A stretch of DNA of 64,000 bases, taken from Thiocapsa bogorovii (lineage in GTDB: Bacteria > Pseudomonadota > Gammaproteobacteria > Chromatiales > Chromatiaceae). Made by a program: the position numbers and the translations under genes. Below are positions 8,038 to 14,049 of this stretch, one piece after another. The notes under the pieces are model-generated. The model searched no databases. It was not told the DNA's origin and saw nothing but the letters and a program-made list of their open reading frames with translations. The first letter of the stretch is position 1, and each line of letters starts with the position of its first letter. The stretch covers positions 558,001 through 622,000 of the forward strand of contig NZ_CP089309.1 of assembly GCF_021228795.1 (NCBI RefSeq), given 5' to 3'.

Positions 8038-8153
8038 AGCCGTCTGCCGCCTGCCGTGATCCTTGAGCCCCGCGCACGGCTGAGCCCGGACCGTGGAAGC
8101 CGGTCGCATGCCATCTGCTGGCGGCTGGCGGCTGGCGGCTGGCGGCTGGCGGA
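8038..8153. repeat. Inverted heptamer-array element, empty form, in the cbbR-cbbL gap
   Basis: The left arm holds three degenerate 7-bp units (AGCCGTC, TGCCGCC, TGCCGTG; 8038-8058). The right arm is a clean tandem of CTGGCGG, five copies at 8118-8152, which on the other strand reads AGCCGCC. Both arms fit the consensus AGCYRYC seen in the two other elements of this locus, and they face each other. The left arm is weak, so the outer limit on that side is uncertain. It lies between cbbR and the AT-rich promoter region of cbbL. Confidence 0.55.
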
Positions 8154-8331: not shown

Positions 8332-9750
8332 ATGGCAAAGACCTACAGCGCGGGCGTCAAAGAGTATCGCGAAACATATTGGATGCCGGAATACACCCCG
8401 TCGGAGACCGACCTCCTAGCCTGTTTCAAGATCACCCCGCAAGCCGGCGTTCCGCGTGAAGAGGCCGCTGCCGCCGTTGCCGCCGAGTCGTCCACCGGCA
8501 CCTGGACCACGGTCTGGACCGACCTGCTGACCGACATGGACCACTACAAGGGCCGCGCCTACGCCATCGAGGACGTCCCGGGGAACGACGACGCCTTCTA
8601 TGCCTTCATCGCCTACCCGATCGACCTCTTCGAAGAAGGCTCGGTCGTCAACGTCTTCACCTCGCTGGTCGGCAACGTCTTCGGCTTCAAGGCCGTGCGT
8701 GCCCTGCGCCTGGAAGACGTGCGTTTCCCGATCGCCTATGTGATGACCTGCAACGGCCCGCCGCACGGCATCCAGGTCGAGCGCGACATCATGAACAAGT
8801 ATGGCCGCCCGATGCTCGGCTGCACCATCAAGCCCAAGCTGGGTCTGTCGGCCAAGAACTACGGCCGTGCCGTCTACGAGTGTCTGCGCGGCGGTCTGGA
8901 CTTCACCAAGGACGACGAGAACGTCAACTCGCAGCCCTTCATGCGCTGGCGTCAACGCTTCGATTTCGTCATGGACGCGATCGACAAGTCCGAGCGCGAG
9001 ACCGGCGAGCGCAAGGGCCATTACCTGAACGTCACCGCACCGACCCCGGACGAGATGTTCAAGCGTGCCGAGTATGCCAAAGAGATCGGCGCGCCCATCA
9101 TCATGCACGACTACATCACCGGCGGCTTCTGCGCCAACACCGGCCTGGCCCAGTGGTGTCGCGACAACGGCGTGCTGCTGCACATCCATCGCGCCATGCA
9201 TGCCGTGCTCGACCGCAACCCGAACCACGGTATCCATTTCCGTGTGTTGACCAAGATCCTGCGCCTGTCCGGCGGCGACCATCTGCATACCGGCACCGTC
9301 GTCGGCAAGCTCGAGGGCGACCGCGAGTCGACCATCGGCTGGATCGACCTGCTGCGTGAGTCCTATGTCAAGGAAGACCGTTCGCGCGGCATCTTCTTCG
9401 ATCAGGACTGGGGCGCCATGCCCGGTGCCTTCGCGGTCGCCTCCGGCGGCATCCACATCTGGCACATGCCTGCGCTGGTCAGCATCTTCGGCGACGACGC
9501 CGTCCTGCAGTTCGGCGGCGGCACCCTGGGCCATCCCTGGGGCAACGCAGCCGGCGCCGCGGCCAACCGTGTCGCGCTCGAAGCCTGCGTCGAGGCCCGT
9601 AACCAGGGCGTCCAGATCGAGAAGGAAGGCAAGGAGATCCTCACCAACGCCGCCAAGCACAGCCCCGAGCTCAAGATCGCCATGGAGACCTGGAAGGAGA
9701 TCAAGTTCGAGTTCGATACCGTCGACAAGCTCGACGTGTCGCATAAGTAA
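8332..9750 (+). CDS. cbbL: RuBisCO large subunit, form IA
   Basis: The 472-residue protein is a complete form I large subunit. Catalytic signatures are present: TIKPKLGLS, the carbamylated-lysine region [23 protein letters not shown], and loop 6 [10 protein letters not shown]. It starts [17 protein letters not shown], typical of proteobacterial form IA. The downstream cbbQ and cbbO place it in the type found without carboxysome genes; no cso gene is seen. The ATG at 8332 is the conserved start, preceded by GAGGACAAGCGAAC, although the frame is open from 8221. The enzyme carboxylates ribulose 1,5-bisphosphate in the cytoplasm. The last base of its TAA stop is the first base of a heptamer repeat. 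Confidence 0.98.
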
Positions 9751-9836
9751 GCTGTCAGCGATTAGCTGTCAGCCATCAGCTACGGGCTATCGCCGCGAAG
9801 CGCCGGCCTTACGCTGAGAGCTGACGGCTGAAAGCT
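9750..9836. repeat. Inverted heptamer-array element, empty form, between cbbL and cbbS
   Basis: The left arm reads in exact 7-bp register: AGCTGTC, AGCGATT, AGCTGTC, AGCCATC, AGCTACG, GGCTATC (9750-9791). The right arm is the same kind of unit inverted: TTACGCT, GAGAGCT, GACGGCT, GAAAGCT (9809-9836). The outermost right unit, GAAAGCT, is identical to that of the cargo-bearing copy ending at 11660. The RNA could fold into a long stem between the two RuBisCO genes. The element begins inside the cbbL stop codon. Confidence 0.75.
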
Positions 9837-9907
9837 CGACGCCAGCGACGCTTGCGATCGACGTTCCAACCGATTTTCACCACGAACCCAGTTTCGGAGC
9901 CACACCC

Positions 9908-10386: not shown

Positions 10387-11193
10387 ATGAGCGAGATCGA
10401 CCGCAACCAATATCTGATCAAGGACGAGCCCTATTACCGCCCCGTGCAGAACGAGGTCGTCATGTACGAGGCGGCCTACGACGCCCGCATGCCGGTGATG
10501 CTCAAAGGACCGACCGGATGCGGTAAATCGCGCTTCGTCGAATACATGGCCTGGAAGATCGGCGCCCCGCTCATCACGGTTGCCTGCAACGAGGACATGA
10601 CCGCCTCCGACCTGGTCGGGCGTTTTCTGCTGGACATCAACGGCACCAAATGGCAGGACGGCCCGCTCACGGTGGCCGCACGCATCGGCGCCATCTGCTA
10701 TCTGGACGAGGTCGTCGAGGCCCGCCAGGACACCACGGTCGTCATCCATCCGCTAACCGACCATCGCCGCCAGCTTCCGCTCGAGAAGAAGGGCGAGCTG
10801 GTGCACGCGCACCCCGATTTTCAGATCGTCATCTCCTACAACCCCGGCTACCAGAGCCTGATGAAGGATCTGAAGCAATCGACCAAGCAGCGTTTCGGTG
10901 CCCTGGACTTCGACTACCCCTCGGCCGATATCGAGACCGAGATCGTCGCCCACGAGGGTCATGTCGACAAGGCGACCGCCGAGAAGCTGGTCCAGGTCGC
11001 CCAACGCAGCCGCAATCTCAAGGGTCACGGGCTCGACGAAGGCATGTCCACCCGCCTGCTGGTCTATGCCGCCCAACTCATCGGGAAGGGCATCGATCCA
11101 CAATCCGCCTGCCGGATGGCGTTGGTCCGACCGCTGACCGATGATCCGGATATGCGCGATACGCTGGATGCGGCGGTGAGTACATATTTTTAG
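10387..11193 (+). CDS. cbbQ: CbbQ, MoxR-type AAA+ RuBisCO activase component
   Basis: The 268-residue protein is a MoxR-family AAA+ ATPase. Walker A is GPTGCGKS at 41-48 and Walker B is [10 protein letters not shown] at about 103-112. CbbQ assembles with CbbO and uses ATP to remodel inhibited RuBisCO and release tight-binding sugar phosphates. The ATG at 10387 gives [20 protein letters not shown], the conserved N-terminus; the frame open from 10309 runs through the terminator and is not used. The TAG stop at 11191-11193 is partly formed by the first heptamer of the element inserted downstream. CbbO normally follows directly but here comes 477 bases later. Confidence 0.96.
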
Positions 11194-11240
11194 CTATCAG
11201 CTATCAGCTATCAGCTATCAGCTATCAGCTATCAGCTATT
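11192..11240 (+). repeat. Left heptamer array, seven tandem AGCTATY units
   Basis: Six exact AGCTATC units and a seventh ending in T, without gaps. The first unit contributes the AG of the cbbQ stop codon TAG. Confidence 0.95.
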
Positions 11241-11274
11241 GGAGCTCAGCTTCGGGCGGTTAGAAGTTTAACTC

Positions 11275-11637
11275 ATGCAGGATTTCCGCGACCTCTTGGT
11301 CTGGGTGAAGGCGCATGACGCGACGCTCGCGGTCTATCGTTACACGCAAACCTTCCCATCGGATGAGCGGTTCGGGCTCACATTTCAAATTAGACGGGCC
11401 GCCGTTTCGGTAGCTTCCAATATCGCGGAGGGTTCCGGAAGGCGAAGCGACGCAGATTTCGCGCGTTTTCTTTCGATTGCGTTCGGCTCTGCCTCGGAGG
11501 TGGAGTACCAAGCACTACTGGCAAGGGATCTAGGCTATATGAGCGATTCCGAGCATCAGGAAATCCGCGACCGACTCTCGGAAGTCAAACGAATGCTCTC
11601 ATCTTTGATCAAGCGGCTAACCACTGAAAACCGATAG
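11275..11637 (+). CDS. Four-helix-bundle protein of the S23/IVP family
   Basis: This 120-residue protein belongs to the family first found inside 23S rRNA intervening sequences and is related in fold to Avd of diversity-generating retroelements. Family landmarks are FRDLLVWVKAHD, FPSDERFGLTFQIRRAAVSV, SNIAEGSGR, DFARFLSIAFGSASEVEYQ and RDLGYMSDSEH. It forms a helical bundle, generally a pentamer, that binds nucleic acid; its cellular role is not established. The ATG at 11275 is the only sensible start. The TAG stop at 11635 lies inside the first unit of the right heptamer array. It is not a Calvin-cycle gene: it interrupts cbbQ-cbbO and is flanked by repeats on both sides. Confidence 0.92.
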   Translation: MQDFRDLLVWVKAHDATLAVYRYTQTFPSDERFGLTFQIRRAAVSVASNIAEGSGRRSDADFARFLSIAFGSASEVEYQALLARDLGYMSDSEHQEIRDRLSEVKRMLSSLIKRLTTENR

Positions 11638-11660
11638 CTAATAGCTGATCGCTGAAAGCT
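11633..11660 (-). repeat. Right heptamer array, four inverted units
   Basis: GATAGCT, AATAGCT, GATCGCT and GAAAGCT in register. On the minus strand these read AGCTTTC, AGCGATC, AGCTATT, AGCTATC and mirror the left array. The cbbO start is 10 bases downstream. Confidence 0.9.
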
Positions 11661-11670
11661 CAATCAAATC

Positions 11671-14049
11671 ATGATCGACTTCTCCGAATACCTCTCCTGC
11701 CTTAAGGCCGACGTGGATCACCCGCACACCCAGGCGTTGGAAGCGAGCTACCACGAAGCCGCGCGCGTCATGTCGCCGCGCGGACTGGAGCATTACCTGA
11801 CCGGCATCAAGGCGATGTGCGGCCTCAATAAAGGCGCCGATCTGGTCCTGACCTATGTGCAGGAGATGCCGCGGGTCGCCAAGGAGGTGGGCGAGGACAT
11901 CACCCCCGAGGTGGTGAGCGCACTGATGAAGCTGGCATCGCACACCTCGGGAACGGTGGTGGCACTGATCATGGCCAGCATGCCGCTGGCCGCGAGCCGG
12001 CTCGGGGATGCGGAGGTGCTGCGCGGGTATCTCAACCTGCTGCATCAGCTCTCGGGCAAGTCGCCGCGGGGCCTGCGCCCGATGATGGAGAACATGGACG
12101 AGCTGCTCTCCAAACTCACGCTCGGCGGTTTGCGACGTTGGGCACTCTGGGGCGCTCAGGCCCATGCACGCGATCTTGACGGTCAGATGGCCTATTTCGG
12201 TCTTCAGACGGAGTCCTCGCGCGCGGTGCTTCAGAAGGAACGGCGCGGGACCCTGCTCGTCGACAACCAACGCAAGCTCAACTTCTATCTTCGCGCACTC
12301 TGGGCCCGGTCGTTCTTCATGCGCCCGACCTCGGGCGACTTCGAGTCGCGCCAAGGACTGCGACCCTTCATCGAAGACTTCCAGATCCATCTGCCGGACG
12401 CCTTCGACAGCTTCCGTGGCATCTCCGGGATCGAGACCTACCGCGCTGCCGCCGCCCACTGCGCGGCCCACATGGTCTACGGCACCCGTGCAATCAGCGC
12501 CGAACAGCTGATGCCGGCACAGATGAAGCTGATCGAGATGTTCGAGGACGCGCGTGTCGAGGCCCTGGCGATCCGGGATTTTCCGGGACTCAGAAAGCTC
12601 TGGCTGTCATTCTTCACGGCGCAGCTCGGGCCGATGGACGACGCCGTCGATCCGCATCCCATGATGGATCTGATGCTGCGCCAGGCGCGCGCCCTACTGG
12701 ATCCGGACTATGTCGACGGACTCCCGCTCATCGACGACACCGCCGTCGCCTTCCGCGCCGCACTGGCCGAGCGTCCGCACGACAACCGCATCAGTTGGGA
12801 CGCCGGCGTCACCTTCTACAACCAGGCCATCAAGACCGTCGCGCTGCCCAATTTGCGCATCCTGGAAAGCTGGCCAATCCCCTATCGGGACGACAATCGC
12901 TATGTTTGGAACTGTGGCGAGAACCTCTTCCTGAGCCGCGGCGTCGACTATCTGCCCGCCTCGCAGCAACAGGTGCGCAAGTACGTCTCGGCGACGGAGA
13001 TGGCGAACGAGGTCGATGTCGAGACCGCCGGGGACGACGCTCAGGAGATCTGGGTCTGCGCGACGGAGTTCTTCCCCTACGAAGACGAGGGCGTCTCCTT
13101 CAACGCGATGGAGGGCAAGGAGCCCATCTCGGACCCCTACCACTATCAGGAGTGGGACTATCAGGTCCAACTCTTCCGCCCGGATTGGGCGACCGTCATC
13201 GAACGGCGTCAAGGCCGCGGCGACCCGGCGCTTATGGACGAGATCCTCACCAAGCACAAGCCGGTCGCGAGCCGCATCCGCCGTCTGATCGACGCACTCC
13301 AGCCGCAGGGCAACGTGCGCCGACGCGGCTACGAGGAGGGCGAGGAGCTGGATCTGAACGCCGCCGTGCGCGCCATGATCGACGTGCGCCGCGGCACCAT
13401 GCCGGATCCAAGGATCAATATCCGCATCACCCGCCATGTCAGGGATCTCGCCATCGTGGTGCTCATGGATCTCTCGGAATCGACCAACGAGAAGGTCGGG
13501 GTCAAGAAGGACGACCCGGATTACGCAACGGCACCGAGCATCCTCAGCCTCACCCGCGAGGCGACCGGGCTTCTGGCCTGGGCGATCGACGGCATCGGTG
13601 ACCGCTTCGCCGTGCATGGCTTCGCCTCCGACGGCCGACACGACGTCCAGTACTATCGCTTCAAGGATTTCGACCAGTCCTACGACGACAACGCCAAGTC
13701 ACGCATGGCCGGCATGAAGGGCGGACTCTCGACCCGCATGGGTGCGGCGCTGCGCCATGCCGGCTGGCACCTCACGCGCCAACCGGCCCAAAAGCGCTTG
13801 GTCCTGGTGATCACCGACGGCGAGCCCGCGGATATCGACGAACGCGATCCGCAATACCTGCGCCACGACACCAAGAAGGCCGTCGAGGAGCTGCGCATGC
13901 AGGGCATCCACAGCTACTGCCTCACGCTCGACCCGCAGGCCGACCGCTATGTGGCCCGGATCTTCGGCGAGAACCAGTACTCCATCGTCGATCATGTGGA
14001 GCGCCTGCCCGAACGGCTACCGGCAGTCTTCGCTGCGCTCACCGGATAG
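11671..14049 (+). CDS. cbbO: CbbO, von Willebrand factor A protein of RuBisCO activase
   Basis: CbbO is the adaptor that links the CbbQ ATPase ring to RuBisCO. The 792-residue protein has a long alpha-helical N-terminal region (about 1-580) and a C-terminal VWA domain. The metal-site motif DxSxS is visible as VVLMDLSES near residue 600, followed by LVLVITDGEP near residue 710 as the domain's second landmark. Length matches the family. The start is ATG at 11701-30 (11671), with little upstream room because a repeat array ends at 11660; GAAAGCTCAATCAAATC offers only a weak ribosome-binding site. The element may therefore have altered translation of this gene. A second ATG is not obvious nearby. 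Confidence 0.95.
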   Translation: MIDFSEYLSCLKADVDHPHTQALEASYHEAARVMSPRGLEHYLTGIKAMCGLNKGADLVLTYVQEMPRVAKEVGEDITPEVVSALMKLASHTSGTVVALIMASMPLAASRLGDAEVLRGYLNLLHQLSGKSPRGLRPMMENMDELLSKLTLGGLRRWALWGAQAHARDLDGQMAYFGLQTESSRAVLQKERRGTLLVDNQRKLNFYLRALWARSFFMRPTSGDFESRQGLRPFIEDFQIHLPDAFDSFRGISGIETYRAAAAHCAAHMVYGTRAISAEQLMPAQMKLIEMFEDARVEALAIRDFPGLRKLWLSFFTAQLGPMDDAVDPHPMMDLMLRQARALLDPDYVDGLPLIDDTAVAFRAALAERPHDNRISWDAGVTFYNQAIKTVALPNLRILESWPIPYRDDNRYVWNCGENLFLSRGVDYLPASQQQVRKYVSATEMANEVDVETAGDDAQEIWVCATEFFPYEDEGVSFNAMEGKEPISDPYHYQEWDYQVQLFRPDWATVIERRQGRGDPALMDEILTKHKPVASRIRRLIDALQPQGNVRRRGYEEGEELDLNAAVRAMIDVRRGTMPDPRINIRITRHVRDLAIVVLMDLSESTNEKVGVKKDDPDYATAPSILSLTREATGLLAWAIDGIGDRFAVHGFASDGRHDVQYYRFKDFDQSYDDNAKSRMAGMKGGLSTRMGAALRHAGWHLTRQPAQKRLVLVITDGEPADIDERDPQYLRHDTKKAVEELRMQGIHSYCLTLDPQADRYVARIFGENQYSIVDHVERLPERLPAVFAALTG

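Follow-up and report, generated by a model that had tools for sequence, protein, structure and literature searches.

S23 genes bounded by inverted heptamer arrays: a probable, widespread small mobile element between bacterial operon genes

The S23 element is a very widespread small mobile element that lies between bacterial operon genes and has no known transposase. It is mobile, insertion having been seen at empty plasmid sites, and positions 11192-11660 of the window (the whole 64,000-nucleotide stretch of DNA analysed) are probably one copy of it: a small S23-encoding unit ended by heptamer arrays, in whose mobility S23 itself would have a role. At this locus (Table 1), the cbbQ stop codon TAG occupies 11191-11193 and the S23 stop codon TAG occupies 11635-11637, inside the first right heptamer, so that both the upstream and the cargo stop codon draw on heptamer bases, the original prediction having placed both inside heptamers. 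The same prediction described two exactly registered arrays, seven units on the left and an inverted four on the right; the left array holds 6.9 perfect copies, and the right array keeps the phase but is degenerate in sequence, the inverted pair extending over 40 nt with 83% complementarity. Profile searches identified a CbbQ_C domain (E 1.2e-35) in the upstream gene and VWA domains in the downstream gene, which we take from its place to be cbbO; the element therefore sits between cbbQ and the VWA gene and not within a 23S rRNA gene. No transposase was found between the arrays, where S23 is the only ORF seen and no Pfam or NCBIfam transposase match was obtained. A scan of 400 kb of this genome for arrays scoring at least 14 returned five of period 7, three of period 6, one of period 8 and none of periods 5, 9, 10, 11 or 13, and the sole inverted pair of period-7 arrays was the cbbQ-cbbO S23 element. 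The gene-less element listed in Table 1 (units AGCTGTC AGCGATT AGCTGTC ... GCTGAGA GCTGACG GCTGAAA), absent from the original prediction, lies at the cbbL stop codon itself, ahead of the next gene (9908).

Table 1. Features at and near the S23 element, in window coordinates
Feature	Position	Strand	Remarks
Lone array, upstream of cbbL	8117..8152	+	GCTGGCG x 5.1
Gene-less array-bounded element	9750..9840	+	AGC-type unit class; read by eye
cbbQ, upstream host gene	10393..11193	+	the last two bases of its stop codon begin the left array
Left heptamer array	11192..11239	+	AGCTATC x 6.9, perfect, 48 bp
S23 gene (23S rRNA IVP, four helix bundle protein), 120 aa	11275..11637	+	PF05635, TIGR02436, fold model, 2GSC match
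Right heptamer array	11633..11660	-	four degenerate units running opposite to the left array
Downstream host gene (VWA protein, at the place of cbbO)	11671..14049	+	starts 10 bases past the right array

The gene between the arrays belongs to the S23/IVP family, as had been read from the sequence, its product matching PF05635 with 134.4 bits (cut-off 33.8, E 2.1e-39) and TIGR02436 with 133.1 bits (cut-off 24, E 4.2e-39). The predicted structure (pLDDT 94.6) is a four-helix bundle as in solved S23 structures, and the model matched 2GSC (E 4e-8, TM 0.84/0.90) and another S23 structure, 2RLD. The suggested kinship with Avd, the partner protein of diversity-generating retroelements, is borne out in fold, with Foldseek query TM values of 0.76-0.80 against the Avd chains 4DWL and 8UB7 (weaker than against S23 structures), but not in family membership, the protein reaching 26.9 bits against NF033474 (Avd, cut-off 80) and 25.5 bits against bAvd (cut-off 40). 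One face of S23 carries a row of invariant polar residues: Q, R, S, N and E in helix 2, plus an E in helix 3. With respect to a defence role, the protein gave no PADLOC match at E 0.1, and no match was found among 50,697 phage records.

Heptamer arrays are present at many other S23 genes. Among 146 genomes of the same bacterial family, PF05635 matches were found in 60, 53 of which were above the cut-off, and 92 S23 loci were collected after the weakest PF05635 rows had been left out. With a flank counted as arrayed at a score of at least 9, arrays stood on both sides of 44 of these loci and on one side of 25, and period-7 flanks numbered 113/184 against 9/178 background windows; among best-scoring arrays (score at least 12), 34 upstream and 44 downstream were of period 7, and any other period from 4 to 12 accounted for at most three. 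The left and right arrays of an element resembled each other in inverted orientation (0.758 against 0.496 when partners were shuffled, a value reached in 0/10000 shuffles). The direct-orientation comparison was also above its shuffles, though by less (0.485 against 0.412), and six or so elements showed a better left-right match in direct than in inverted orientation; both points count against the reading proposed below. The architecture extends to other phyla, as seen in a set made of the best 80 of 521 confirmed relatives (2/80 duplicating loci already collected), which by record title come from Nitrospirota, Bacteroidota, Chloroflexota, Acidobacteria, Planctomycetes, candidate phyla and others. 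In these best 80, an array was found on at least one side at 51 loci and on both sides at 38, arrayed flanks amounted to 89/160 against 7/149 background windows, and inverted similarity was 0.808 against 0.520 in shuffles (0/10000). On the other hand, 23 of the 92 family loci and 29 of the other 80 had no array at the threshold, which counts against that reading. The heptamer unit differs between elements, the left and right arrays of one element matching as inverted repeats, and the predicted unit AGCYRYC thus describes the local version and not a general one. An AG core is nevertheless common to the aligned units (199 arrays, 3.40 bits against a null maximum of 2.60 in 10 trials), and heptamer similarity tracks S23 protein similarity (n=64, r 0.20, 0/2000 permutations). 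A few of the best 80 have period 8 or 9 in place of period 7; in all, such arrays, replacing period 7 or accompanying it, were noticed at ten S23 loci.

The cbbQ-cbbO slot, where an empty site had been proposed to exist in related genomes, is empty or otherwise occupied at some of the 53 junctions examined: S23 elements, with AGC-type units in every case, are present at nine, another nine are nearly empty (gap 28-43 bp), and the junction of genome G031 holds a remnant consisting of the end of S23 only. With arrays also present around many other S23 genes, neither of the outcomes that the original prediction had named as refuting it was obtained. Between genome G000 and its congener G023, cbbQ is 98.1% identical and S23 58.1%, and between G049 and G087 the values are 91.4% and 94.8%, with no correlation between cbbQ and S23 identities over all 36 pairs. 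The discordance in the first pair implies that the slot has probably been filled more than once, or that one S23 has been swapped for another. Eight of the nine S23 proteins from this slot cluster in the tree (support 92/67). Other genes were seen at the same junction. GxxExxY genes occur at L135, L149 and L155 (and at L151 and L157, recognized by their ends), the two tested (L135 and L155) matching TIGR04256 with E 1.9e-40 and 3.2e-40; the inverted repeats that enclose these elements, AACCGCAGAGACGCAGAGG, are of a different kind. Judged on L149 and L155, which have such other boundary repeats and no strong period 7, the GxxExxY elements were set aside as kin of S23 elements. Fic-type genes occur at three junctions, one identified by PF02661 (L140) and the other two (L131 and L134) by resemblance.

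Insertion itself is seen in cyanobacteria. Plasmid C of Trichormus variabilis carries S23 between two genes, adjoining a trb gene, and in six plasmids 97.2-97.8% identical to it the corresponding span is 1673 bp against 2101 bp when filled, 428 bp shorter. The four empty plasmids that were read (Nostoc linckia, Aulosira laxa, Tolypothrix PCC 7601 and Nostoc carneum) have AAAAAGTAATTAAC, and the filled plasmid has AAAAAGTAAT, 423 bp and GTAATTAAC; compared with these four, the insert is flanked by 5-bp repeats, GTAAT, that contain the upstream stop codon. The idea of a mobile unit that lands at a stop codon and has no transposase gene of its own is thereby supported, with the target duplication of 5 bp documented at this one empty site. 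The same slot holds a short gene-less array-bounded element in Brasilonema and a truncated S23 copy in Nostoc C052. Presence and absence also alternate in cas operons, S23 lying between cas10 and cmr3 in Picosynechococcus PCC 7003 and not in PCC 7002, at a site too diverged for a target duplication to be judged, and between cas6 and cas4 in Pseudanabaena galeata and Anabaena sp. 90 and not in Pseudanabaena ABRG5-3. In a four-gene Nostoc operon, elements occupy different gene gaps in different plasmids, and two other Nostoc junctions, one with a 3-bp overlap and one with none visible, are not clean duplications. Inverted heptamers were present on both sides of the first six plasmid S23 loci read by eye.

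Gene-less copies and exchange between slots are seen in one genus (g21), over which AGGTGAC arrays are scattered. A query made from the S23 locus of genome G138 found 43 matches in G138 itself, 57 in G120 and 17, 13, 9 and 9 in four other genomes of the genus, flank matches included in all of these counts. At 18 places in this genus, the elements, where complete, measure about 120-280 bp; their interior is conserved and their right array is inverted. The first part of this gene-less interior is similar to what follows the array at the start of the S23 element in G138; likewise, three cyanobacterial places have both ends of the S23 element and no gene. In G120, despite its many AGGTGAC arrays, no S23 belonging to that type was detected, a point against the reading proposed below. 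At the S23 locus of this genus, flanks are 88-96% identical between six species and the S23 genes fall into three classes (95-98% identical within, 67-71% between), each with its own heptamer; S23 alleles have been swapped here together with their arrays. Ten further slots examined across the six species yielded 57 of 60 cells, every one an array-bounded insert, and the element found at an orthologous slot varies with the species. AGGTGAC-type inserts occupy 9/10 slots in G138 and 6/9 in G120, the other four species having mostly AAAGGTT-type inserts, a share of the AGGTGAC family that is biased because the ten slots were picked on AGGTGAC arrays in G138 and G120. Hybrids were recognized by eye, with the left array of one family joined to the interior of another or an AGGTGAC array abutting AAAGGTT units. 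No empty site was found for the gene-less elements of this genus, nearly all flank pairs having an insert. Gene-less interiors inverted between species at one slot were observed at five loci.

In the reading that we propose, the ends of the element are the inverted heptamer arrays with their AG core, and S23 is its only gene. Such elements insert, as the empty sites show, where operon genes are separated by a short gap, and the junction often includes the stop codon of the upstream gene. Gene-less derivatives retain the element ends, and different elements replace one another in the same slot, as shown by the exchanges in g21 and by the discordant S23 at cbbQ-cbbO. S23, as a toroidal four-helix bundle with an Avd-like fold, may bind heptamers both at the element's own ends and in arrays at target sites, and may perform or recruit strand transfer. 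A stronger version, in which the S23 toroid would itself catalyse a new kind of transposition, or be the only component of its machinery that the element encodes, and would read tandem heptamers as both ends and targets, with the polar row on one face as its working site, is put forward as a doubtful conjecture; we know of no catalytic activity of S23, which counts against a reading in which S23 drives the element. The exchange between slots could also come from host recombination between dispersed arrays, by cassette exchange or gene conversion between inverted arrays, which would shift interiors from slot to slot with S23 as a passenger and with no transposition today. The swapped and inverted interiors at orthologous slots and the hybrid elements, both read by eye, are what such recombination would leave; however, it makes no new slots, and pre-insertion sites without an array exist (L378-L381), and it leaves unexplained why S23 is the recurrent gene inside the arrays, so that we consider it possible, if on the unlikely side. 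That the arrays are regulatory sites grown by slippage and S23 an ordinary host gene of the cbb operon appears very improbable: the recurrence of S23 at nine of the 53 junctions and the grouping of eight of these proteins in one tree group fit such a view, but most junctions have no S23, S23 diverges where cbbQ is nearly identical, and the same architecture is found in unrelated operons such as cas10-cmr3, cas6-cas4 and trb.

A further alternative places the element at the RNA level, in the manner of rRNA intervening sequences, with the paired arrays cut by RNase III and an RNA copy spread by a reverse transcriptase in trans. The element RNA is predicted to fold with its arrays paired (z -3.09, 0/100 shuffles), S23 has an Avd-like fold, rRNA intervening sequences are cut by RNase III according to the available text of PMC4990558, and RVT_1 matches are more frequent in family genomes with S23 (41 of 53) than in the remaining ones (45 of 93), by a hand tally in which genome size is not factored in. 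Mismatches between the arrays on the sense strand, on the other hand, are not richer in G-U than in A-C (11.9 against 19.0; a Wilcoxon test on 67 of 81 elements gives p 0.03 for the opposite direction), and selection for RNA pairing of the arrays is not supported by this test. By the same hand tally, 12 of the 53 S23-bearing genomes have no RVT_1 match; a reverse transcriptase in the same genome is therefore not always present, which weakens it as a required partner. We regard this RNA-level account as unlikely. The genome studied here has 13 RVT_1 matches, and among the 12 matches listed none lies in the window. The original prediction had also raised an RNA-guided system, for which the analysis gave no support, no sign of a guide being found.

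The closest known system to the mobile S23 element proposed here is the 23S rRNA intervening sequence with an S23p ORF, known from Coxiella and Leptospira. In the available text of Warrier et al. 2016 (PMC4990558), the Coxiella intervening sequence is 428 nt long and carries S23 with three heptameric repeats upstream, and mobility of rRNA intervening sequences is a proposal cited to Burgin 1990 and to Ralph and McClelland 1993. As described there, such an intervening sequence shares with the S23 element a size of about 430 bp, inverted ends and a single S23 gene, and its heptamers (GACAGAT, in tandem shortly before the start of S23) recall the upstream heptamers of the cbbQ-cbbO element. S23 elements differ from it in their place between protein-coding genes and in having an array on either side, the unit varying by element; gene-less derivatives, slot exchange and empty sites that point to a short duplication are further differences. 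TAACTGA heptamer repeats have been reported by MacGregor 2015 (PMC4679880, available text) in Beggiatoaceae, cyanobacteria and Bacteroidetes with no mechanism evident; read on the other strand and rotated, TAACTGA becomes AGTTATC, one base off AGCTATC, and these repeats are likewise intergenic, overlap stop codons and are thought to be horizontally spread. Unlike for the S23 element, inverted arrays around a gene are not described in that text, and the words S23, four helix and intervening do not occur in its main text. In the open-licence literature, under part of the possible synonyms, we found no paper linking S23 genes outside rRNA to heptamer arrays, and none in the open-licence literature joining S23 rRNA intervening sequences with TAACTGA-type arrays. 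The S23 element shares with MITE and REP/RAYT-type elements its short copies without a gene, which have inverted ends and probably rely on help in trans. Like elements with terminal inverted repeats, MITEs included, it has inverted ends, an empty site with a target duplication (GTAAT, at one site) and gene-less copies with those same ends; unlike MITE and REP/RAYT elements, it ends in tandem heptamers that vary in sequence and number, and its related copies that hold a gene carry S23 and not a known transposase. As for Avd, the likeness is one of fold, below both family cut-offs.

If correct, this reading would give a common cause to the origin of S23-bearing 23S rRNA intervening sequences and to the abundance of ever-changing heptamer arrays in bacterial genomes, and would provide a testable role for the very common orphan family annotated as 'four helix bundle protein'. 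It would also explain S23 genes inside cas, trb and cbb operons, where neighbourhood surveys may mistake them for parts of the system. A CRISPR survey (PMC10910872), in its available text, includes 23S rRNA IVP in its list, which may be because S23 sits in cas operons. S23 genes inside cas operons (cas10-cmr3 and cas6-cas4) were observed at three loci.
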